Source of the DNA: a virus
Length of the DNA stretch: 22,718 bases
Strand: one strand, 5' to 3'
IMG/VR virus record: IMGVR_UViG_3300028025_000993
Span: 1-22,718 of that record
Program-made: the position numbers and the translations under genes
The notes under the pieces: model-generated
What the model saw: only the letters and a program-made list of their open reading frames with translations
What the model was told of the DNA's origin: nothing
Database searches by the model: none
Part shown: positions 4,201 to 11,481 of the stretch, one piece after another
How the letters are laid out: every line of letters starts with the position of its first letter
Numbering within the stretch: the first letter of the stretch is position 1

Positions 4201-4550
4201 AACTGACTCCAGAGGTTGTTAGAAACCTATATTCATCTCTCTATTGCTGCTATCCATTTACCAAATGGAAGATGCCCCTGCCAGAAGAGATTGATTTTGT
4301 AGTCACAGCTGACCCAGAATTAATGGGTACATACCTATACGATACTGGTGAAGACTATGAGCATACAATTACAATATCTTCTGCCCGCTGCGGTCATTAC
4401 TATACCGTCATTACTACTTTGGCTCATGAGTGTGTACACATGAGTTTTTATCGGCAAAAAGGTGACAAATGGATGCAGCATGGAAAACCGTTTCGCATTA
4501 GATGCAAGATGGTAGCTGATGAACTAGGCCTTGACCCGCTAGAACTGTAG
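4197..4550 (+). CDS. SprT-like zinc metalloprotease-like protein
   Basis: A 117-residue protein with the zinc-binding motif HECVH at residues 77-81 and a likely third ligand at His95 (QHGKPFR). The placement of HExxH about two thirds along, followed by a H-G-x-x-F segment, is that of SprT-type proteins, the family of the DNA-protein crosslink protease Spartan. It lacks the C-terminal zinc ribbon seen in longer members. Its ATG overlaps the stop of the metallophosphoesterase gene, so the two are coupled and may act together on DNA. Its last 12 bases overlap the convergent membrane-protein gene. Confidence 0.82.
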   Translation: MKLTPEVVRNLYSSLYCCYPFTKWKMPLPEEIDFVVTADPELMGTYLYDTGEDYEHTITISSARCGHYYTVITTLAHECVHMSFYRQKGDKWMQHGKPFRIRCKMVADELGLDPLEL

Positions 4551-4775
4551 CCAAGGCATTAATTTATTGTTGATGTACAAGACAATCCCGCAAAAATAAA
4601 ACGCTACTGCCACAATTTCCACTACAAATAGCGGCATATCATCCTGCTGATACCCTGCGTAGGCCCATAATCCAGAGCCAATAAACCCAATTAAGATGTT
4701 TAAAGGATAGATATTGATGCTTGTAAGCAAGATTCCAAGCAAGCAAAGTGTTGTACCAGCCCATTTAATGCTCAT
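4539..4775 (-). CDS. Small membrane protein with three or four TM segments
   Basis: A 78-residue, strongly hydrophobic protein. Predicted membrane segments by eye are about 4-20, 22-43 and 49-69, with a short acidic QQDD turn at about 44-47. The GxxLWxYAGYxQDD pattern recurs in small phage and bacterial inner-membrane proteins of unknown role. A candidate promoter lies 40-65 bases upstream, flanked by an inverted repeat (4820-4852), so it may be separately regulated. There is no strong ribosome binding site. It converges on the SprT-like gene with a 12-base overlap. Confidence 0.72.
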   Translation of the reverse strand: MSIKWAGTTLCLLGILLTSINIYPLNILIGFIGSGLWAYAGYQQDDMPLFVVEIVAVAFYFCGIVLYINNKLMPWLQF

Positions 4776-4810
4776 AATTCATACTTATAAGTGTTGATTT
4801 GCTATACATA

Positions 4811-4839
4811 TTAATACTTATATGTACATTTATTGACAA
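4811..4839 (-). promoter_or_regulatory. Candidate promoter for the small membrane protein
   Basis: On the minus strand, TTGTCA (4839-4834, five of six matches to the -35 consensus) is separated by exactly 17 bases from TATTAA (4816-4811, four of six to the -10 consensus). It points at the gene ending at 4539, whose ATG is at 4775. The spacing is ideal; the -10 match is only moderate. Confidence 0.5.
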
Positions 4840-4852
4840 AAAGTGTACATAT
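4820..4852. repeat. Perfect 9-bp inverted repeat (operator candidate)
   Basis: ATATGTACA at 4820-4828 is the exact reverse complement of TGTACATAT at 4844-4852, with a 15-base spacer. Arm centres are 24 bases apart, a little over two helical turns. Each arm also contains the self-complementary core TGTACA. The arms flank the -35 box of the candidate promoter 4811-4839, the layout expected for binding of a dimeric repressor or activator. The region 4776-5026 holds no gene; it contains this repeat, the promoter and the direct repeats at 4873-4925. Confidence 0.55.
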
Positions 4853-4872
4853 CAGCAGAGTTGTTGACACTT

Positions 4873-4925
4873 TTGTAAAGTTTTAGCGGTTAATTGTAAA
4901 GTTGTTAACATGGAATTGTAAAGTT
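4873..4925. repeat. Three iteron-like direct repeats TTGTAAAGTT
   Basis: TTGTAAAGTT occurs exactly at 4873-4882, 4894-4903 and 4916-4925. Start-to-start distances are 21 and 22 bases, about two helical turns, so all copies face the same side of the helix. Each copy is followed within a few bases by similar A/T-rich text, and very A+T-rich sequence lies just downstream (about 4940-5050). Such arrays are typical of replication origins or of arrays bound cooperatively by a regulator; which applies is not shown by the sequence. Confidence 0.6.
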
Positions 4926-5026
4926 AATGACAGGTAACCTATTTTAAAAACGCTTGTAACTGCATGAAATTTCAATAAAAAGCCATGCAAAAATGTGACA
5001 TCTTGTCCGAAATTTGTATATTTTTT

Positions 5027-5131
5027 TCAGAAATTACGGTAATAGCGGTCTTTAGGGTTATTAAGCATTGATTTAATAAGCTCATCTATATTAAAGAACC
5101 ATTGAATAACTTTCATGCCGTTGTGCTGCAT
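5027..5131 (-). CDS. Possible 34-residue protein at the end of the leftward operon
   Basis: A short open frame of 34 codons starting MQHNGMKVIQWFF, with a second in-frame ATG at 5116. It starts 12 bases after the stop of the 69-residue gene and is read in the same direction. A weak ribosome binding site (AAGTGAG) lies about 10 bases before the ATG. The composition (charged C-terminal NNPKDRYYRN) looks protein-like rather than random, but there is no recognisable family, so it could still be chance. Confidence 0.4.
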   Translation of the reverse strand: MQHNGMKVIQWFFNIDELIKSMLNNPKDRYYRNF

Positions 5132-5142
5132 GATTGTAAAAC

Positions 5143-5352
5143 TCACTTCTCTTGTGCCTTTCTTAGTATTGCTCTAGCAAATTCGTATGTTGTTTCGCCC
5201 ATCCATCCTATTGCTTCAAAACCATGTGCTATTTCCTGTATTTCCTCATCTGTTAGTATTTTTGCTTTTTCTAATTGTTGGTAAGCCCATTGCTGTATTT
5301 CTACATCGGCTGTGCCATTTTTTAATGTTTGTAGTTTTCCGTGATAGCTCAT
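5143..5352 (-). CDS. Small phage protein, LTDEEI...AILRKAQE family (shortened copy)
   Basis: A 69-residue protein whose second half, LTDEEIQEIAHGFEA followed by FARAILRKAQEK, matches the C-terminus of the 86-residue protein at 7200-7460. The DNA coding for this end is identical over 29 bases in both genes (5147-5175 and 7207-7235). Members of this family usually start MNNEPVAW; here that start is found upstream at 5390 but in another frame (see 5349-5390). The ORF therefore seems to use a new internal start, coupled by an ATGA overlap to the 13-codon frame before it. Function unknown. Confidence 0.65.
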   Translation of the reverse strand: MSYHGKLQTLKNGTADVEIQQWAYQQLEKAKILTDEEIQEIAHGFEAIGWMGETTYEFARAILRKAQEK

Positions 5353-5390
5353 ACTTCCTCCGTGTTCATCGCTACTGGTTCATTGTTCAT
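5349..5390 (-). CDS. 13-codon minigene or frameshifted N-terminus (MNNEPVA)
   Basis: The frame reads MNNEPVAMNTEEV then stop. Its first 20 coding bases (5371-5390) are identical to the start of the 86-residue gene at 7441-7460. It begins in an ATGA overlap with the DUF3310 stop and ends in an ATGA overlap with the 69-residue gene, so both ends are translationally coupled. Together with 5143-5352 it looks like a duplicated family member whose frame was broken (248 bases against 261 in the intact copy). It may be a leader peptide, a relic, or a frameshift site. Confidence 0.5.
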   Translation of the reverse strand: MNNEPVAMNTEEV

Positions 5391-5590
5391 TTCAACCTCT
5401 TGGCTATTTCTCGTTCTATATACCATTTTGCTTTACGCAAATCTTCAATAGCGTCATGCTTTTCGTCTGCTCGCCAAATGTACTTCATAGCATTGCCAAG
5501 GCAAAATCCCATGTGTTCTGTAATCTGGATACATTCAATACCAGACGGGTGGTTTGTGTAGTGTTTTGGATGGTTTACTGGGTCATTCAT
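5387..5590 (-). CDS. DUF3310 family protein
   Basis: A 67-residue protein that matches the DUF3310 pattern almost throughout: DPVNHPKHYTNHPSGIECI near the start, ITEHMGFCLGNAMKYIWRAD in the middle and AIEDLRKAKWYIEREI at the end. The family is widespread in phages and is often annotated as a nucleotide-kinase-like or SaV-like protein, with no proven activity. The gene overlaps the Ref-like gene by 8 bases upstream and the minigene by 4 bases downstream, and sits in the leftward early operon, consistent with a role in DNA or nucleotide metabolism. Confidence 0.9.
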   Translation of the reverse strand: MNDPVNHPKHYTNHPSGIECIQITEHMGFCLGNAMKYIWRADEKHDAIEDLRKAKWYIEREIAKRLK

Positions 5591-5855
5591 TTAAAAGCTC
5601 CAATGTTTGCTCAAGAAGGGTGTCTTCAGATATGCCATATTCCCTTTCAAATCGCTTACGGCCAAGGAAGTGAACTCCGCCACCACCCGTGTGGTGATAG
5701 GGGCAGAGGCCAATGACAGGGCTATCTGCTCTGCGGCCACCTCTACGAATGTGGTGAATATGACACTCTGTTCCCTCGTTGCCTTGATGCCTACATAATG
5801 AGCATCCCAACTCAGCGATTTTTCTAAATTTTTCTTTTTCAATTTTAGTTGCCAT
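5583..5855 (-). CDS. Ref-like RecA-dependent HNH nuclease
   Basis: From the ATG at 5855 this is a 90-residue protein. It has a CSLCR knuckle (Cys18, Cys21), then HIHHIRRGGRRAD (residues 32-44), GLCPYHHTG with Cys51, His54 and His55, and GRKRFEREYG near 65-74. This is the signature of the phage P1 Ref family, HNH-type nucleases directed by RecA filaments that stimulate recombination. The frame stays open to 5930, but the shorter start removes a long overlap and leaves 11 bases shared with the PD-(D/E)XK gene. Known Ref proteins can be longer at the N-terminus; here only the catalytic domain is present. Confidence 0.85.
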   Translation of the reverse strand: MATKIEKEKFRKIAELGCSLCRHQGNEGTECHIHHIRRGGRRADSPVIGLCPYHHTGGGGVHFLGRKRFEREYGISEDTLLEQTLELLNE

Positions 5856-6213
5856 CTGCCAGCTCATACCATTGACGGTAGAATCCTTTAAACATTTCCA
5901 GCCCTTGTCCAGCCAGCATACAGCTGCCATCCTTTTGGACCAAAAAGTATTTATCTATCACCATTGAGTTATCCGTATTTCCATAAATAATTACGACCAT
6001 AAAATCATCTTTAGATGCCAATGCTTTTAATAGAATCTTTTGGCCTTCGCTAACTTTTTCGCTAGGCCGCTTCCATTCCATAATTAAAAATTTGCCTTTG
6101 CGCTCGCATATTCCATCTACATTGCTTGGTACAAATGCAGGATTAGTAGGGATTGCGCCTTTTAAATCGGCATAATCCGTATGCGTAGCAAACATATTTC
6201 GCATTAGTTTCAT
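5845..6213 (-). CDS. PD-(D/E)XK-type nuclease, phage
   Basis: A 122-residue protein from the ATG at 6213, which overlaps the previous stop as ATGA (an open frame continues to 6267 but is not needed). The active-site pattern is NVDGI (Asp near residue 33), a short strand, then LIMEWKRP (Glu and Lys near 49-51), followed by SEGQ, the usual Gln of resolvase-like nucleases. It probably cuts DNA during recombination or repair, next to the Ref-like nuclease. Assignment to the superfamily is by motif spacing; substrate is unknown. Confidence 0.65.
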   Translation of the reverse strand: MKLMRNMFATHTDYADLKGAIPTNPAFVPSNVDGICERKGKFLIMEWKRPSEKVSEGQKILLKALASKDDFMVVIIYGNTDNSMVIDKYFLVQKDGSCMLAGQGLEMFKGFYRQWYELADGN

Positions 6214-6365
6214 AGAGTTGCGACTACATCTTCCAGCTCTTGCACGGTATCTGTTAAGGTACAGCAAATTTCGTGCGCTTTATCTTTGTTGTTTTTTAGC
6301 AACGCATTTAATAATTCTCGCTCAAGCGTCTTCATTTTTAATAGTGATTCTGACCAGTCTTTCAT
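6210..6365 (-). CDS. 51-residue helical protein of unknown function
   Basis: A short frame starting MKDWSESLLKMKTLERELL and ending ELEDVVATL, almost entirely predicted helix with Leu at regular intervals. It begins with an ATGA overlap on the stop of the gene at 6362-6712 and ends with an ATGA overlap on the start of the PD-(D/E)XK gene, which is strong evidence that it is translated. Two adjacent Cys lie in the middle (residues 34-35). Similar tiny helical proteins are common in early operons; no function can be given. Confidence 0.72.
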   Translation of the reverse strand: MKDWSESLLKMKTLERELLNALLKNNKDKAHEICCTLTDTVQELEDVVATL

Positions 6366-6712
6366 ATATTTCCTTTTCTACGGTTAGCGGATAATGTTTG
6401 CCAAATTTCTGTTATGCGGATTTCATGGTTTCTTTGATTGTCCAAAGTTTTAAAATCTACAAACGCCTTTAATTGCTCATCTAGGGCCTTGTCGTATTCT
6501 GGGCTTATCAGGGCTTTGGCTTGGCGCTCTGCAATCGTTCCGTCTGCCTTTAGATAAGCATGGGCCTCTGCCTGCTTTAGCTTAGCATCACGGTATTTAA
6601 CTTCTCCAGCCAGAGCTGCGTGCGTTTCGTCTGTCTGGCTTAATTCTGCTAGGGCCATTGCCACCCTATTGTCTGTTAACGCATCAAGACTCAATCCATT
6701 GTCCGTGCTCAC
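6362..6712 (-). CDS. Conserved helical phage protein, GTG start
   Basis: A 116-residue, highly charged helical protein starting at a GTG (6712-6710) preceded by AAGGGGA at good distance, which supports this start over internal ones. Motifs such as AHAYLKADGTIAERQAKA in the middle and LDNQRNHEIRITEIWQTL at the end are typical of a phage early-region family of unknown function often found near replication genes. A coiled coil is likely over about residues 15-50 and 70-105. It overlaps the 61-residue gene by 29 bases and the 51-residue gene by 4. Confidence 0.7.
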   Translation of the reverse strand: MSTDNGLSLDALTDNRVAMALAELSQTDETHAALAGEVKYRDAKLKQAEAHAYLKADGTIAERQAKALISPEYDKALDEQLKAFVDFKTLDNQRNHEIRITEIWQTLSANRRKGNI

Positions 6713-6869
6713 CTGTATTCCCCTTTTTGTACTGCGTTACAAAGTCATCAATTACTTCTTGCGACCAGTTATGTTTACTTAAATATTCACGGAATTTCTT
6801 TAAACCCCATTCATTGCGCCATTTTATTAACTGTCTTACGCCACAGCGATGCCTAGCTTGTTCAAGCAT
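6684..6869 (-). CDS. Small phage protein, CxVRQ...KGNxG family
   Basis: A 61-residue protein with RCGVRQLIKWRNEWG near residues 8-22, a helical middle and a C-terminal VTQYKKGNTGEHGQW. The 'C-VRQ ... W.RGN.G...W' arrangement recurs in small phage proteins encoded beside replication genes (I recall it as a domain of unknown function). It overlaps both neighbours (34 and 29 bases). No clear ribosome binding site precedes the ATG, so the exact start is uncertain, though translation through coupling is possible. Confidence 0.6.
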   Translation of the reverse strand: MLEQARHRCGVRQLIKWRNEWGLKKFREYLSKHNWSQEVIDDFVTQYKKGNTGEHGQWIES

Positions 6870-7207
6870 TTAGCTTTAAGACTTTGGTAAGTGTCGTATC
6901 CAGTCCCCAAAACTCCCAATTCTTTTGCTTTATTTTCAATACCTTCATTTGTCATCATCCAAGTCTTATCAATTTTTTGCTTTTTCGGCTCAATTACTAG
7001 CTCATCTTCCCAGCGCTCTTGATTAATCCAAGTAGCTGGATGGGGGATAAATTCTAACTCAGTTTCTTTTGATGACCAATACTCAACATGGTTATGTACG
7101 GCCCGTGCAGCTGCCAATTGATTCTCTGGCGTTAACTTGGCCCATGCCTTGCGTGCTACCGCTTTGGCAATCTTGCGTGGATACAATGCCCAAAATTCAT
7201 CAAACAT
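6836..7207 (-). CDS. Replication-initiator/organiser-like protein (C-terminal-type domain)
   Basis: A 123-residue protein starting FDEFWALYPRKIAKAVARKAW and continuing with FIPHPATWINQERWEDE at about residues 53-69. This FWxxYPxK...hPxTWln..RW pattern is the module found at the C-terminus of many phage replisome-organiser or O-like replication proteins, where it is thought to contact the host helicase or its loader. Here it stands alone without an N-terminal winged helix. The rest, ending KCLNKLGIAVA, is helical. It overlaps the MNNEPVA-family gene by 8 bases. Confidence 0.65.
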   Translation of the reverse strand: MFDEFWALYPRKIAKAVARKAWAKLTPENQLAAARAVHNHVEYWSSKETELEFIPHPATWINQERWEDELVIEPKKQKIDKTWMMTNEGIENKAKELGVLGTGYDTYQSLKAKCLNKLGIAVA

Positions 7208-7460
7208 TCTCTTGTGCCTTTCTTAGTATTGCTCTTACAGTTGCAAGAAACTCATCTAACGGCATACCAATACCACCATCTTCAAATACAAACTGCGGAT
7301 AAATAAAATCTTTTATTTCCTCATCTGTTAGTGTCTTTGCTGGATGGGTGTAGAGTGGAGTTTTGTACATCCCCTCATACTTATCATGCTCATCAGGGTG
7401 TATAGCATCAAAAAAACCATCATCTTTTATATAAGCCCACGCTACTGGTTCATTGTTCAT
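7200..7460 (-). CDS. Small phage protein, MNNEPVAW...LTDEEI...AILRKAQE family
   Basis: An 86-residue protein starting MNNEPVAWAYIKDDG, with PLYTHPAKTLTDEEI in the centre and TVRAILRKAQENV at the end. This architecture is a common small phage family of unknown function. A partial, frame-broken second copy lies at 5143-5390; its DNA is identical over 20 bases at the start and 29 bases at the end. The gene starts in an ATGA overlap with the 54-residue gene. Acidic and Tyr/Pro-rich; no membrane segment. Confidence 0.78.
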   Translation of the reverse strand: MNNEPVAWAYIKDDGFFDAIHPDEHDKYEGMYKTPLYTHPAKTLTDEEIKDFIYPQFVFEDGGIGMPLDEFLATVRAILRKAQENV

Positions 7461-7621
7461 ATCAGCGCATCCTCAAATTGCGATAAGTCTAATTTTTGTA
7501 CGGGTTTGCGTACGCATTTAAAGGTCCAGCCAGCCCTGTTGCTTATCAGCTGTTTGGCCTCTTCTTGGCGGCTAACAATACGCATTGTTTCGCCATCCTC
7601 ATCTTTAACTATGTATGGCAT
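7457..7621 (-). CDS. 54-residue conserved-type phage protein
   Basis: A short frame starting MPYIVKDEDGETMRIVSRQE, with AKQLISNRAGWTFKCVRKP and KLDLSQFEDALI at the end. The stop overlaps the start of the MNNEPVA-family gene as ATGA. Proteins opening with 'MP.IVK..dG....IVSR.EEA' occur in phage early operons, always of unknown function. The gene overlaps the 70-residue gene upstream by 17 bases. One Cys; no TM segment. Confidence 0.72.
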   Translation of the reverse strand: MPYIVKDEDGETMRIVSRQEEAKQLISNRAGWTFKCVRKPVQKLDLSQFEDALI

Positions 7622-7817
7622 TAACTTGTCCCATTAGCGCTTTACATTCATCTTCTGCCATCTGCAGGTCTGATGACAACTGGCGAATAATTGCCTTTAA
7701 GTATTCATTCTGGCGCAGCAATATTCCATGCTCTTCCATTAATTGACGGTACATTTTTTCAGTTTCGGTAGGTATTATGCTTGCTCCACTATCGACTATT
7801 ACGGTTGGCTGGTGCAT
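7605..7817 (-). CDS. 70-residue coiled-coil protein of unknown function
   Basis: A 70-residue protein with a short extended N-terminus (MHQPTVIVDSGASI) followed by one long helix from about residue 17 to the end with heptad Leu/Ile spacing (RQLMEEHGILLRQNEYLKAI). A good ribosome binding site, AAAGGA, precedes the ATG inside the end of the upstream secreted-protein gene (29-base overlap). It is second in the leftward operon. No family recognised. Confidence 0.65.
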   Translation of the reverse strand: MHQPTVIVDSGASIIPTETEKMYRQLMEEHGILLRQNEYLKAIIRQLSSDLQMAEDECKALMGQVNAIHS

Positions 7818-8046
7818 TTGTGTCCTTTTGTACTTGCGCTACTGGTTGGCCCAATGTATTGGTAATGTACAGCGTGTTATTGACTTGCTGGACTTGTGAT
7901 ACTACAGCTCCCATGACATTGCTGACATAGGTAGTATTGCCAATTGTCTGAACCTGACCAATTGGTTGACCTAATGTATTAGTGATGTAATCGGTCTGGG
8001 CCGATACGGATGATGATGCAATAAGTAACACGGTTAAAAGTTTCAT
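7789..8046 (-). CDS. Secreted repeat protein, first gene of the leftward operon
   Basis: From the ATG at 8046 (AGGGGG ribosome binding site; the frame itself opens at 8100) this is an 85-residue protein. Residues 1-16 form a signal peptide with a likely cleavage after SVSA. The mature part is three tandem 20-residue repeats, each opening with T-x-Y-[IV]-[ST]-N and containing G-x-[PV]-[IV]-x-Q-V-Q; repeats 1 and 3 share YITNTLGQP. Such repeats probably form short beta strands. The protein would be exported to the periplasm or cell surface early in infection, where it could alter the envelope or block other phages; that role is inference. Confidence 0.75.
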   Translation of the reverse strand: MKLLTVLLIASSSVSAQTDYITNTLGQPIGQVQTIGNTTYVSNVMGAVVSQVQQVNNTLYITNTLGQPVAQVQKDTNAPANRNSR

Positions 8047-8068
8047 AGTTCCCCCTATAAGAACCTTC

Positions 8069-8097
8069 ATAGTAAAGCTGGCTTTAGTAGATGTCAA
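8069..8097 (-). promoter_or_regulatory. Leftward early promoter with internal operator
   Basis: On the minus strand TTGACA (8097-8092, perfect -35) is followed by 17 bases and TACTAT (8074-8069, -10). The palindrome AAAGCCAGCTTT (8085-8074) lies within the spacer and overlaps the -10 by one base. The expected transcript start is about 8062, 16 bases before the first ATG at 8046. It would drive the whole leftward operon to about 5027. The same design occurs at 8825-8853. Confidence 0.8.
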
Positions 8098-8158
8098 CAA
8101 CTTTATTCAATTATTTTTTATGTTTTTTAACTTAGTTATTTTTAACAATAGATTCCCA

Positions 8159-8390
8159 AGGGTGATAAGCATAGTCTTTCCTCTAGCTTAATCTACCTGA
8201 CCCAGACTATAAGTCCCAGTCCTACCTGAGTTAATGTTCGCTCGATGGAAAAGTTGTCTATCACCGTTGTCTTTTCCGTCTTATCTAGTCCCCATTTAAG
8301 GCTAGTAGGCTGGCAATCGGGTGAGGAATCCGCCTGTGTTTTCTTCCACGCAGCCCAGTCAGGCCCTTAATATCGTATGGAGTACGGCAA
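8159..8390. other. Gene-free region with complementary segments, possible structured RNA
   Basis: No convincing gene lies between 8098 and 8540. Complementary pairs include GGTGATA 8161-8167 with TATCACC 8259-8265, and GGAAAAG 8247-8253 with CTTTTCC 8271-8277; these two pairs interleave, as in a pseudoknot. Others are GGCTG 8308-8312 with CAGCC 8351-8355, GACT 8205-8208 with AGTC 8212-8215, and a direct repeat CTACCTGA at 8193-8200 and 8222-8229. The stretch is more G+C-rich than other gaps here. It could be a non-coding RNA read from either strand; no known RNA family is recognised. Confidence 0.35.
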
Positions 8391-8479
8391 TAAAAAACCC
8401 TTTAGAGGTATCCTTTGTTCGCCAGCTTTAGAAATAGCTCTCCCCTATTTCCAAAACCCAAAAGACACCCATAAAGGGT
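8391..8479 (-). terminator. Terminator-like structure after the repressor gene
   Basis: On the minus strand ACCCTTTA (8479-8472) can pair with TAAAGGGT (8404-8397), which runs directly into a T6 tract (8397-8392). The 67-base interior contains a second perfect hairpin, GAAATAG with CTATTTC (8431-8437 and 8445-8451, 7-base loop). The run of T after the stem fits an intrinsic terminator for the repressor transcript, but the long loop is unusual, and it may instead be part of a larger RNA fold. Confidence 0.4.
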
Positions 8480-8504
8480 CTGTGGTGGAGAGAGTTTACT
8501 TCTC

Positions 8505-8523
8505 ATGCAATGGCGAATTGCAT
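8505..8523. repeat. 7-bp hairpin just past the repressor gene
   Basis: ATGCAAT (8505-8511) and ATTGCAT (8517-8523) form a perfect inverted repeat with a 5-base loop, 18 bases beyond the repressor stop. There is no T tract on either side, so it is not a standard terminator. It could protect the 3' end of the mRNA or be a protein-binding site. Confidence 0.4.
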
Positions 8524-8540
8524 TGTTATTATACACAAAA

Positions 8541-8783
8541 TTATTTGTCTAGTAATTCTGGCCAAATCCACGCATACGCTACTGGAAACAAGTCTTTCCT
8601 AGAAATTAAACCGTGGCTTTCTTTTTCCAGCAAGGCTGCTAACAGCATTAACTTGTCAGCTGGAATGTCTTTTTCTTTCCATTGGCATACGGCTTGAATA
8701 CTAATAGAGCATAGTTTGGCGACCCGTTTTGCTCCGCCAAGTAGTTCAATAATCTGTTCTGAGTTGAGTTTTATTTTGTTCAT
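8541..8783 (-). CDS. Cro/YdaS-like helix-turn-helix repressor
   Basis: An 80-residue protein with a single helix-turn-helix: IIELLGGAKRVAKLCSISI then QAVCQWKEKDIPADKLMLLA, about residues 11-48. The G-G-x-x-x-[VL]-A ... S-x-x-x-[VI]-x-x-W order and the following IPxxxxxxL are typical of Cro- and YdaS/DicB-neighbour-type regulators of phages. It is the only clear stand-alone regulator in the window and is transcribed away from the rightward operon. Two early promoters with matching AAAG-N4-CTTT operators flank it (8069-8097 and 8825-8853), so it is the natural candidate to bind them. The start lacks a strong ribosome binding site. Confidence 0.85.
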   Translation of the reverse strand: MNKIKLNSEQIIELLGGAKRVAKLCSISIQAVCQWKEKDIPADKLMLLAALLEKESHGLISRKDLFPVAYAWIWPELLDK

Positions 8784-8824
8784 ACAGCCAAGTTTACCAG
8801 CAAAGTCTTATTTCTACAACATAC

Positions 8825-8853
8825 TTGCAATTTCTTAAAGTATGCTTTACTAT
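8825..8853 (+). promoter_or_regulatory. Rightward early promoter with internal operator
   Basis: TTGCAA (8825-8830) is followed by 17 bases and TACTAT (8848-8853). The palindrome AAAGTATGCTTT (8837-8848) starts six bases after the -35 and its last base is the first base of the -10, exactly as in the leftward promoter at 8097-8069. It would drive the rightward operon starting at 8892. The predicted start site (about 8860) falls on a second palindrome, GCTCAC-C-GTGAGC. Confidence 0.72.
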
Positions 8854-8859
8854 GTAATG

Positions 8860-8872
8860 GCTCACCGTGAGC
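8860..8872. promoter_or_regulatory. 13-bp palindrome at the rightward start site
   Basis: GCTCAC (8860-8865) and GTGAGC (8867-8872) form a perfect inverted repeat around a single central C. It sits about 7-19 bases after the -10 of the rightward promoter and about 20 bases before the first ATG. It may be a second operator or a 5' hairpin of the mRNA. Confidence 0.45.
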
Positions 8873-8891
8873 TTTAACTTTTGGGGGAAAT

Positions 8892-9101
8892 ATGATGGAT
8901 GAATTACACAAACTAATGCAAGAGCATGAAGAGTTTTTAGAAGAGTCCTTAGAGGCAATGGAGTGTGGCTGGCCTACGCAAGCGCAGGTTGACTGTATTC
9001 GTGCTGCCTGCGGTAAACCAAAACGCCAACGCAATAATGTAATGTCTGGTTTATTTAACGAATTCGGAAATATTTTTGGGGATAAAAATGCAACAATCTA
9101 A
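8892..9101 (+). CDS. Acidic small protein, first gene of rightward operon
   Basis: A 69-residue protein. The first 27 residues are strongly acidic and helical (MMDELHKLMQEHEEFLEESL), followed by GWPTQAQVDCIRAACGKP and a basic patch, then NNVMSGLFNEFGNIFG. A GGGGGAAAT ribosome binding site precedes two adjacent ATGs (8892 or 8895). It is the first gene after the rightward promoter and overlaps the ERF gene by 14 bases. No family recognised. Conserved-looking Cys at about 52 and 57 could bind a metal, but this is weak. Confidence 0.7.
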   Translation: MMDELHKLMQEHEEFLEESLEAMECGWPTQAQVDCIRAACGKPKRQRNNVMSGLFNEFGNIFGDKNATI

Positions 9102-9717
9102 TTCAATCAAAGAGTTGGCAACAGCTTTATCTAAAGTACAAGGCCAATTAACTTTTGCTAAAAAAGATAACGCCAATCCATTTTTTAAATCCAAATATGC
9201 TGACTTAGCATCTGTTTGGGATTCTTGCCGTACCCTGCTATCTGACAATGGTTTAGCCGTTATTCAGTTTCCAAGTGGATACGCTACAAATGTAGTAGAT
9301 GACAAAACCAAAGAGCATCTAATGTCTTTGACTACAATCTTGACCCATTCATCTGGCGAATGGATTAGCCAAGATATGACCGTACCAGTCACTAAAGCCG
9401 ATGCTCAAGGCGCAGGTTCTGCTTTGACTTACATGAGGCGTTATGCGCTTGCCGCTGTAGTTGGTGTTTATCAAGATGACGATGACGGTAATGCAGCGTC
9501 TAAGCCCGTTAAATTTGCCGAGAAACCTACATTGGTTGCTATTTCTATTCCAATGCACCCTGCGCAGCTAGGCCAGATTGAGAAACTGATTGCAGAAACC
9601 GAAACTGACGCATCAAAAATTTTGATTTATTACAAAAAAACAACACTTGACCAGCTCAATACTGAAGAGGCTGACCAAGTAATCTCTAGTCTTCAGAAAA
9701 AACTCATTAAGGAATAA
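9088..9717 (+). CDS. erf: ERF-family single-strand annealing protein
   Basis: A 209-residue recombinase that anneals complementary single strands, as phage P22 Erf does. The family pattern is clear: IKELATALSKVQGQL at the start, NPFFKSKYADLASVWD at about residues 30-45, and GAGSALTYMRRYALAAVVGV at about 111-130, then DDDDGNAAS. The C-terminal third is variable and probably binds partners. The ATG at 9088 has GGGG seven bases before it; an upstream in-frame TTG at 9076 lies within that signal and is not a likely start. The SSB gene follows three bases after the stop. Together with SSB and the exonuclease it forms a complete recombination set. Confidence 0.93.
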   Translation: MQQSNSIKELATALSKVQGQLTFAKKDNANPFFKSKYADLASVWDSCRTLLSDNGLAVIQFPSGYATNVVDDKTKEHLMSLTTILTHSSGEWISQDMTVPVTKADAQGAGSALTYMRRYALAAVVGVYQDDDDGNAASKPVKFAEKPTLVAISIPMHPAQLGQIEKLIAETETDASKILIYYKKTTLDQLNTEEADQVISSLQKKLIKE

Positions 9718-9720
9718 ACC

Positions 9721-10113
9721 ATGTCGGGAATCAATAAAGTCATTGTGCTAGGAAATGTAGGCAAAGAGCCAGAAGTAAGAACCTTTGATAGCGGAGATAC
9801 CGTTACTAATTTTTCTGTAGCTACAAGTGAGAAATGGAAAGACAAGACTAGCGGTGAATCTAAAGAATCTACTGAATGGCATAGGGTAAGTTGCTTTGGC
9901 AAATTATCTGAGATTGCCAGTAAGTATGTAAAAAAAGGCGACAAGATTTATGTTGAAGGGTCTTTGCGTACACGCAAGTGGACTGATGCAGCTGGAGTAG
10001 AGAAGTATTCTACCGAAATAAAAGCAGAAAAGATTGAGTTACTTGGCGGTAAACAGACAAATACCCCACAAGGGTCTATTGAAAATATGGCAGACGATGC
10101 CATTCCATTTTAG
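9721..10113 (+). CDS. ssb: Single-stranded DNA-binding protein
   Basis: A 130-residue OB-fold protein. It begins with INKVIVLGNVGKEPEVR, has FSVATSEKWKDK and EWHRVSCFGKLSEIASKYVKKGDKIYVEGSL in two parts of the core, and ends with ADDAIPF, the acidic tip that bacterial SSBs use to recruit partners. It coats single strands made during replication and recombination. It is preceded by AAGGAA and follows ERF by three bases, so the two are probably translated together. Shorter than the roughly 175 residues of E. coli SSB, as usual for phage forms. Confidence 0.95.
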   Translation: MSGINKVIVLGNVGKEPEVRTFDSGDTVTNFSVATSEKWKDKTSGESKESTEWHRVSCFGKLSEIASKYVKKGDKIYVEGSLRTRKWTDAAGVEKYSTEIKAEKIELLGGKQTNTPQGSIENMADDAIPF

Positions 10114-10122
10114 GAGAAGTGT

Positions 10123-10326
10123 ATGAACAGCGCAATTAAGGATTATGTAATTAATAAAGCCATTCAATACTGCGAGCCATGCGGAGTAGATGAAGAAAAG
10201 CAGCTGCTTGCATTTGAGCCAGCTGACCTTAAAAGTATTATTAATGATGTCATCCAAATTTGCGCTGACATGGTAATTGACCCAGCAAATAGGCTTGAAG
10301 TTTTAAAACTGGGTGACTTTAAATAA
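10123..10326 (+). CDS. 67-residue early protein of unknown function
   Basis: An acidic, mainly helical 67-residue protein (MNSAIKDYVINKAIQYCEPC..., with FEPADLKSIINDVIQICADM in the centre). It has a good GGAG ribosome binding site and lies nine bases after SSB and 19 bases before the exonuclease start, so it is part of the same operon. Three Cys residues (about 17, 20 and 47) include a CxxC pair. No family recognised; it may assist the recombination enzymes. Confidence 0.65.
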   Translation: MNSAIKDYVINKAIQYCEPCGVDEEKQLLAFEPADLKSIINDVIQICADMVIDPANRLEVLKLGDFK

Positions 10327-10345
10327 TGATGTCTTTGGGGGAAAT

Positions 10346-11092
10346 ATGTCACAACATTGGTATTGCGCCAAAACTGGCGAGCCACGCTATACAGTTATCG
10401 GCAAAAACGGCAAAGAACGAAACACCACGCTACGGGATGCAAGAAATGATGGCCTTGTACCTAGCGTATCAACAATTAACGGACTGCTATCAAAAGCAGG
10501 CCTTGATACATGGAAACAAACAGAAGTCCTATATGCCGCAGCTGAGTATCCACGACTAGATAATGAGGATGAAAAGTCTTGGATTGACAGATTGTTGTAT
10601 TTATCCAAACAAAAAAGCAGGGATGCAGCCGAACGGGGCAATTTAATTCATGGGGTTATTGAGTCCCATTACAACTTAGACTACCTTCCAGAATGGCCAG
10701 CTTATGTCTATGCTGTAGAAGAAGCTCTAAACAATCATTTTGGGCCACAATTATGGGCCGCTGAGCGCTCTTTTGCACATCCGTTAGGGTTTGGTGGCAG
10801 AGTTGATTTATCGTGCCGTAGCGATGCAATTAAAACCTTTGACGGAATAGTCGTAGATATTAAGAGTAAAGAAGGTCCTTTAGAAAGCATCGTTCCCTAC
10901 CATGAGAATATCATGCAATTGGCTGCCTATCGAGAAGGATTAAGAACGCCAGCTGCAAGGTGCGCTAACATCTATGTTAATGGCACGACCAATGAAGTGC
11001 GGATAGTAGAGCATGATGAGCAGGACCTGCGGGACTCTTTTGAGTGCTTTCAAAGTCTTTTGCGGTTTTATCAAATTAAAAATAAACTATAG
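10346..11092 (+). CDS. PD-(D/E)XK exonuclease (RecB-nuclease-like)
   Basis: From the ATG at 10346 (GGGGG ribosome binding site) this is a 248-residue nuclease. The core shows AAERGNLIHGVIE (His102), AAERSFAHP (Glu140), GGRVDLSC (Asp154), VVDIKSK (Asp171, Lys173) and MQLAAYREG (Gln191). This is the order of phage alkaline-exonuclease and RecB-type nuclease domains. It most likely resects double-strand ends to give the single strands used by ERF. The frame opens earlier at 10313, but that would overlap the upstream gene and ignore the ribosome binding site. It closes the rightward recombination operon. Confidence 0.88.
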   Translation: MSQHWYCAKTGEPRYTVIGKNGKERNTTLRDARNDGLVPSVSTINGLLSKAGLDTWKQTEVLYAAAEYPRLDNEDEKSWIDRLLYLSKQKSRDAAERGNLIHGVIESHYNLDYLPEWPAYVYAVEEALNNHFGPQLWAAERSFAHPLGFGGRVDLSCRSDAIKTFDGIVVDIKSKEGPLESIVPYHENIMQLAAYREGLRTPAARCANIYVNGTTNEVRIVEHDEQDLRDSFECFQSLLRFYQIKNKL

Positions 11093-11184: not shown

Positions 11185-11212
11185 TTGCAAGTAAAGCCAG
11201 CTTGAGTAATAC
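11185..11212 (+). promoter_or_regulatory. Candidate third promoter with operator-like palindrome
   Basis: TTGCAA (11185-11190), a 16-base spacer, then TAATAC (11207-11212). The spacer contains AAAGCCAGCTTG (11193-11204), identical to the leftward-promoter operator except for the last base. Here the palindrome starts only two bases after the -35 rather than six, and the -10 is weak, so this copy is less certain. It would drive the small-gene cluster beginning at 11251. Confidence 0.45.
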
Positions 11213-11250
11213 TGTGGTTTCTCCATGGGGGAGAATAAAAGGAGATTTAA

Positions 11251-11481
11251 ATGAAACGCACTAATTATGTTTTCTCAATGTACTACGGTGATACCTACCT
11301 TGATATATACGGATATGAAGATGCAGACGAGCCAAATGTAGGTCATGTAGGCGGTGTAGATATTGAAGATGTCTGTATATCAGATACTGAGGTTAGCGTA
11401 TTGGAAATGATACACGCCTTAAATTGGGATAAATTTGAGGCCCAAGTACATGAAAGCTATTGCTTAAAGGACCACGCATGA
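11251..11481 (+). CDS. Acidic 76-residue protein of unknown function
   Basis: A 76-residue, strongly acidic protein starting MKRTNYVFSMYYGDTYLDIYG and containing VGGVDIEDVCISDTEVSVLE. Alternating hydrophobic and polar residues in the first half suggest beta strands, with a C-terminal helix. It is the first gene after the third candidate promoter, has a GGAG ribosome binding site, and ends in an ATGA overlap with the next small gene. No family recognised. Small acidic early proteins are often inhibitors of host enzymes; that is only a possibility here. Confidence 0.68.
   Translation: MKRTNYVFSMYYGDTYLDIYGYEDADEPNVGHVGGVDIEDVCISDTEVSVLEMIHALNWDKFEAQVHESYCLKDHA

Follow-up and report, generated by a model that had tools for sequence, protein, structure and literature searches.

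A putative Cro-only repressor circuit with operators in the spacers of early promoters in a P22-like virus record

The repressor gene and its setting

The window, by which the whole stretch of DNA analysed is meant, is a 22,718-base virus record, and its source appears to be a freshwater, P22-like virus infecting bacteria. Its TerL is 46-50% identical to those of podoviruses including Pelagibacter phage EXVC031P, BcepC6B and MEP301. The left early operon (4539..8046, − strand) comprises small ORFs, a replication initiation protein, an HNH/Ref-like nuclease and a nucleotide-kinase-related ORF, and the right early operon (8892..11092, + strand) encodes a small ORF, an Erf annealing protein, SSB and a PD-(D/E)XK exonuclease, with the lysis genes on the distal − strand. 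A complete podovirus relative, MW202674.1 (36.6 kb, circular), shares the gene order of the window and carries P22-like portal and coat genes. The repressor of this relative (4566-4781, + strand) has been left without annotation, and an annotated ORF on the opposite strand overlaps it.

The gene between the two operons (8541..8783, − strand) encodes an 80-residue Cro/YdaS-like helix-turn-helix repressor, identified through Pfam, PHROG and AlphaFold, with a recognition helix of about SIQAVCQWKE. It matches the Pfam families P22_Cro (PF14549) over residues 9-44, marginally at 30.3 bits against a cut-off of 30.2, and YdaS_toxin (PF15943) at 30.5 bits against a cut-off of 30, and belongs to a PHROG of transcriptional repressors (5e-11). 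The AlphaFold model, built from 16 relatives (pLDDT 88.8), has its best PDB matches in Cro Xfaso 1, YdaS of CP-933P, N15 Cro and P22 Cro, all at E 0.018 or worse, and is consistent with the Cro-like helical fold of the P22 Cro family. The protein lacks a C-terminal sensor domain, and its gene is divergent from the right early promoter rather than the first gene of the right operon. The toxin role of YdaS itself is disputed in the literature (PMC5917428).

Operators in the early promoters

The left early promoter PL (8069..8097, − strand; TTGACA, 17 bp, TACTAT) was identified by direct reading and by a sigma-70 scan, and reads TTGACA-TCTACT-AAAGCCAGCTTT-ACTATG from 8097 to 8068, which divides into TTGACA TCTACT AAAG CCAG CTTT ACTAT, then G. 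The right early promoter PR (8825..8853, + strand; TTGCAA, 17 bp, TACTAT) has homologues in relatives, with TTGAC or TTGC as −35 and TAATAT as −10, and reads TTGCAA-TTTCTT-AAAGTATGCTTT-ACTATG from 8825 to 8854, or TTGCAA TTTCTT AAAG TATG CTTT ACTAT, then G. Direct reading confirms the common design that the sequence-only reading had proposed for the two promoters (6 bases, AAAG-N4-CTTT, TACTAT, then G), and the sole clear repressor gene does sit between them. The palindrome is present at both promoters but is one base longer on each side than first described, TAAAGN4CTTTA, and forms the left operator within the PL spacer (TAAAGCCAGCTTTA, 8073..8086, − strand) and the right operator within the PR spacer (TAAAGTATGCTTTA, 8836..8849, + strand).

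A third operator, TAAAGCCAGCTTGA (11192..11205, + strand), had been overlooked. It carries one mismatch and lies in the spacer of a promoter predicted from sequence, P3 (11185..11213, + strand), with TTGCAA at 11185-11190, 17 bp, and AATACT at 11208-11213, ahead of an ORF at 11251-11481. Its homologue in relatives is their far operator, and a downstream CTCCAT-GGGG leader is common to the window and relatives. The exact TAAAGN4CTTTA palindrome occurs only at PL and PR in the whole 22.7-kb window, two copies against 0.08 expected, and six copies against 2.1 expected are found when up to one mismatch is allowed. The joint motif AAAGN4CTTTACTATG is found exactly twice in the window and in none of 100 shuffles. 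A generic sigma-70 scan lists PL and misses PR, giving 9 promoter-like matches against 9.5 expected; because such matches are no commoner than chance, it is the palindrome and its conservation, rather than the hexamers, that carry the case.

Conservation was assessed in 80 fetched viral loci with a related repressor, of which 42 distinct loci were counted; these counts accept both half-sites, TAAAG and TTAAG, with expectations from first-order Markov resampling. The search for the motif beside homologous repressors, proposed in the sequence-only reading, finds the exact AAAGN4CTTT almost absent near the gene, but the operator class itself in dozens of loci. The near-empty search at first seemed a refutation and is accounted for by the P22-type half-site TTAAG carried by most relatives, among which TTAAGN4CTTAA is the commonest operator. 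In 30 of the 42 distinct loci an exact operator occupies the equivalent position of the divergent right promoter (0.04 expected). The left promoter, 450-900 bp downstream of the repressor start, has one in 26 of 40 (0.13 expected), and a third promoter within the right operon, 1.5-3.5 kb upstream, in 22 of 29 (0.44 expected). Outside these three zones the 42 distinct relatives hold 6 exact operators against 1.75 expected. Recurrence of the protein family, the operator class and the promoters at both early operons supports the claim that one small Cro/YdaS-like protein acts on both.

When aligned by direction of transcription, all three operator classes sit in the spacer between −35 and −10. 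In the right promoter of relatives the operator follows the −35 by 6 bases and is overlapped by the −10 TAATAT; in the left and third promoters the gap before it is about 3 bases, and TAAACT or TATACT comes directly after. The exact 6-base register is common to both promoters of the window but is no rule in relatives, and since registers differ there between promoters, the equal register is a detail of the lineage. Two other records were placed on the same scale, relative to the repressor: MW202674.1 has sites at −2860 (9/10), −65 (9/10) and +880 (10/10) from its unannotated repressor ORF, and MW202520.1 has five 9/10 sites, at −2113, −89, −13, +1116 and +1537.

The closest relative (L001, 89% amino acid identity) keeps both promoters, but its right site (TAAACTATGCTTTA) and its left site (TCAAGCTGGCTTTA) each carry one mismatch. 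In the sister clade L002-L007 (62-65%) another palindrome, GTAAATTTAC, occupies the PR spacer at −64 from the repressor start, and there is no clear left site. The recognition helix of this clade is also altered, and the combined change of operator and helix is a possible natural switch of specificity. The operator is missing from other repressor lineages (L015, L029, L072). Lambda-like Cro relatives from Acinetobacter (40% amino acid identity) were tried as members and left uncounted because their palindrome differs (TGTTAGGAN2TCCTAACA region) and an S24 repressor is present.

The proposed promoter of the repressor gene is PRM-like (8791..8819, − strand; TTGTAG, 17 bp, TAAACT), recognised from sequence and ending 7 nt before the ATG. 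A degenerate operator, TAAACTTGGCTGTA (8783..8796, − strand), which scores 8/10 to the half-site of the window, lies over its −10 and the start codon. This fourth site is weaker than those of relatives: in 33 of the 42 related loci the 14 bases preceding or covering the repressor start reach exactly 9/10 against TTAAGN4CTTAA and never 10/10, through several different single mismatches (TTAAGATAGCTTAC, TTAAGATAGCTGAA, TTAAGATAAATTAA, TTAAGATAACTAAA and others), and the remaining nine score 5-7. In relatives the site includes the −10 (TAAGAT) of the repressor, mostly 5-9 nt before the ATG, and because of this short distance the repressor mRNA is probably leaderless. The imperfect fourth copy suggests weak autoregulation of this mRNA. 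Leaderless mRNA has been reported for lambda cI and PaaR2 (PMC8630535).

The operator-controlled transcripts each seem to start with a short hairpin, in the window at 8859-8873, 8045-8068 and 11214-11237 and also in relatives (e.g., TACGGTATGTGCCGTG and ACTCAATAACGAGTGA); these hairpins are short, and none is significant against shuffles when taken singly.

Structured RNAs between the repressor gene and the left promoter

In the interval from the repressor stop to PL, about 250 nt are near-identical in the window and its closest relative, against differences of about 13-25% in neighbouring regions; this conserved stretch is the second of two structured RNAs that occupy the interval. The first, sRNA1 (8393..8527, − strand), is about 135 nt long; a TATAAT of its own (8528-8533) immediately follows the repressor stop, and its terminator stem is U-tailed. 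Across 24 aligned relatives, covariation is best in a helix that joins the 5′ loop with the 3′ region as a pseudoknot, and other helices covary too; the window retains this pair as TTCGCCA with TGGCGAA. The variable 5′ part may also pair with the hairpin loop of sRNA1 over 8-10 bp in the window and its closest relative, a suggestive pairing that does not rise above shuffles in every locus.

The second, RNA-A (8155..8386, − strand), spans about 230 nt between sRNA1 and PL, is supported by covariation and was found in 78 viral stretches by a pattern search. Its alignment (n = 40) contains 49 pairs with 99.1% of cells paired and compensatory changes at 21 of the 49, and a covariation score of 0.278 compared with 0.03-0.06 when the partners are slid. 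It includes a pseudoknot in which a GGTGAT loop pairs with ATCACC. Short P7-like strings raised the idea of a group I intron, which found no Rfam match and no support. In testable loci fetched through the RNA sequence alone, not through the protein, RNA-A precedes the left operator in every case, with an exact operator within 200 nt (65 of 65; 23 of 23 distinct).

Comparison of RNA-A and sRNA1 with the 4227 families of Rfam 15 gave no match, with only chance-level matches on the spacer, and both are apparently undescribed as structured RNAs. The literature library searched held nothing of use on these phages or on Betaproteobacteria-1 RNA. In four relatives (L002, L006, L008, L012) the slot of RNA-A, at about +280 to +510 relative to the start of the repressor, holds the Betaproteobacteria-1 RNA (RF02932), a hint of a betaproteobacterial host and of exchange of RNA cassettes. 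At least two further sequence types are visible by eye in the slot, in L013, L047 and L076 and in L034 and L067 (e.g., GGCTGTAAATACCCCTAGAAACTACTAG). It is somewhat probable that a Cro-only circuit is here coupled to a slot for structured RNA, in which RNA-A and sRNA1 represent new non-coding RNA families of freshwater phages and RNA-A is exchangeable with Betaproteobacteria-1 RNA and other types. These RNAs may act in regulation, in structure or in countering host defences.

A proposed Cro-only circuit and its alternatives

The nearest known system is the immunity region of P22. The P22 record contains the sites TTAAGACTTCTTAA, assigned by its position to OL, and TTAAGTCATCTTAA, TAAAGATTCCTTTA and TTAAGTGTTCTTTA, likewise assigned to OR; because the record shows these sites, the half-site of the window is one of those of P22. 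The two systems share half-sites TTAAG/TAAAG with N4, palindromes with an AAG-N4-CTT core at the left and right early promoters, a Cro of common Pfam family, an Erf-type recombination gene and, in the complete relative, portal and coat genes of P22 type. In P22 the operators are clustered and C2 is a separate repressor, whereas the present phages have one strong operator per promoter, no C2 or CI that could be found, a Cro-like gene divergent from PR (in the seat of cI) and a third promoter carrying its own operator.

Lambda places OR1 and OL1 within the promoter spacer, where the operator blocks RNA polymerase, and it shares with the present system the leaderless repressor mRNA, which is probable here, and, in OR3, a weak site over the promoter of the repressor itself. 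The operator sequence is another here, the sites are single and one protein is proposed. Lambdoid cro heads the PR operon, and lambdoid operators are clustered and cooperative, in contrast to the divergent repressor and single strong sites of the window. Placement of the operator in the promoter spacer is already known from P22 and lambda and is not new; the mechanism is known in kind, from P22 operators and spacer occlusion, and the reduced arrangement is new.

YdaS of the CP-933P and Rac prophages shares the Pfam family YdaS_toxin and a similar fold (8co2), and the case has been made for it as a Cro analogue whose operators lie over two divergent promoters (PMC8630535, PMC5917428). YdaS works beside PaaR2/RacR and YdaT (PMC8630535, PMC5917428), partners that are not seen here, and its inverted repeats (consensus GTTTAGTAA) differ from the window operator. 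PY54 Cro is likewise a small Cro on a single palindrome in a repressor region with leaderless mRNAs, but it binds one site only and represses cI rather than its own or the early promoters (PMC4488713).

In the proposed circuit, the 80-residue P22 Cro-type protein would bind as a dimer to a 14-bp palindrome, TAAAGN4CTTTA in the window and TTAAGN4CTTAA in most relatives. Three promoters (right, left, and the third, inside the right operon) each carry one operator in the spacer, and because of this position a bound dimer would exclude RNA polymerase from PR, PL and P3. The promoter of the repressor itself points away from PR and would yield a leaderless mRNA; in relatives its −10 and the start codon are covered by an operator copy that is always imperfect. 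Accumulating repressor would shut the early promoters first and then limit itself, and the circuit would serve as a timer ending early-gene expression in lytic growth, possibly also providing superinfection immunity. Such a Cro-only repressor with three spacer operators, acting as a lytic early-gene timer and not as a lysogeny switch, is very likely.

The protein could instead stand in the place of cI as a one-protein maintenance repressor of lysogeny, in a temperate phage that integrates in some unrecognised way or persists as a plasmid. Its transcription divergent from PR and its probably leaderless mRNA, as in lambda cI, would fit this role, and P22, which uses the same operators, is itself temperate; yet the 80-residue protein has no sensor domain, and neither a resolvase (serine recombinase) nor an S24 domain (PF00717), as expected of a separate lambdoid-type CI or C2, was found in 19 records. 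Phage_integrase, sought as the tyrosine integrase, is absent from all 31 records searched, one of them complete, an absence that is no more than suggestive, because the window and its relatives are mostly fragments. No second strong helix-turn-helix gene was found, with at most one sub-threshold HTH_3 match per record among 20, that of MW202674.1 being its repressor itself. Across 84,980 species genomes only two relatives reach at least 60% identity, both at the ends of fragmentary MAG contigs, and the search there for prophage homologues yielded only weak or fragmentary matches. A lysogeny repressor is therefore unlikely, and the Cro-like timer is favoured because integrase, S24-type CI and a second strong helix-turn-helix gene are all missing.

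A host regulator or another phage protein could also bind the palindromes while the repressor acts elsewhere, as similar A+T-rich palindromes are often recognised by regulators and binding by the repressor is so far a prediction. This is quite improbable, as the operator class is that of P22 Cro and C2, with Cro being the Pfam family of the repressor itself, in relatives the sites surround the gene and overlap its start, and divergent repressor lineages have no site or another. Coincidence between two promoter-like sequences sharing one short palindrome might be argued from generic promoter matches, which are as frequent in shuffled sequence of the region, but the rarity of the exact pair, the absence of the joint promoter motif from shuffles and positional conservation in dozens of relatives leave it a negligible probability, already refuted by the conservation data.

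The early-gene timer favoured here would be a minimal and testable circuit, built from a single 80-residue protein, three strong operators and a weak fourth, conserved across dozens of uncultured freshwater phages. Clades that differ in both operator and recognition helix provide a natural data set for the specificity of repressor-operator recognition. A compact control region with several unrelated types of structured RNA in one place is relevant to the study of phage RNAs and of phage-host conflict.
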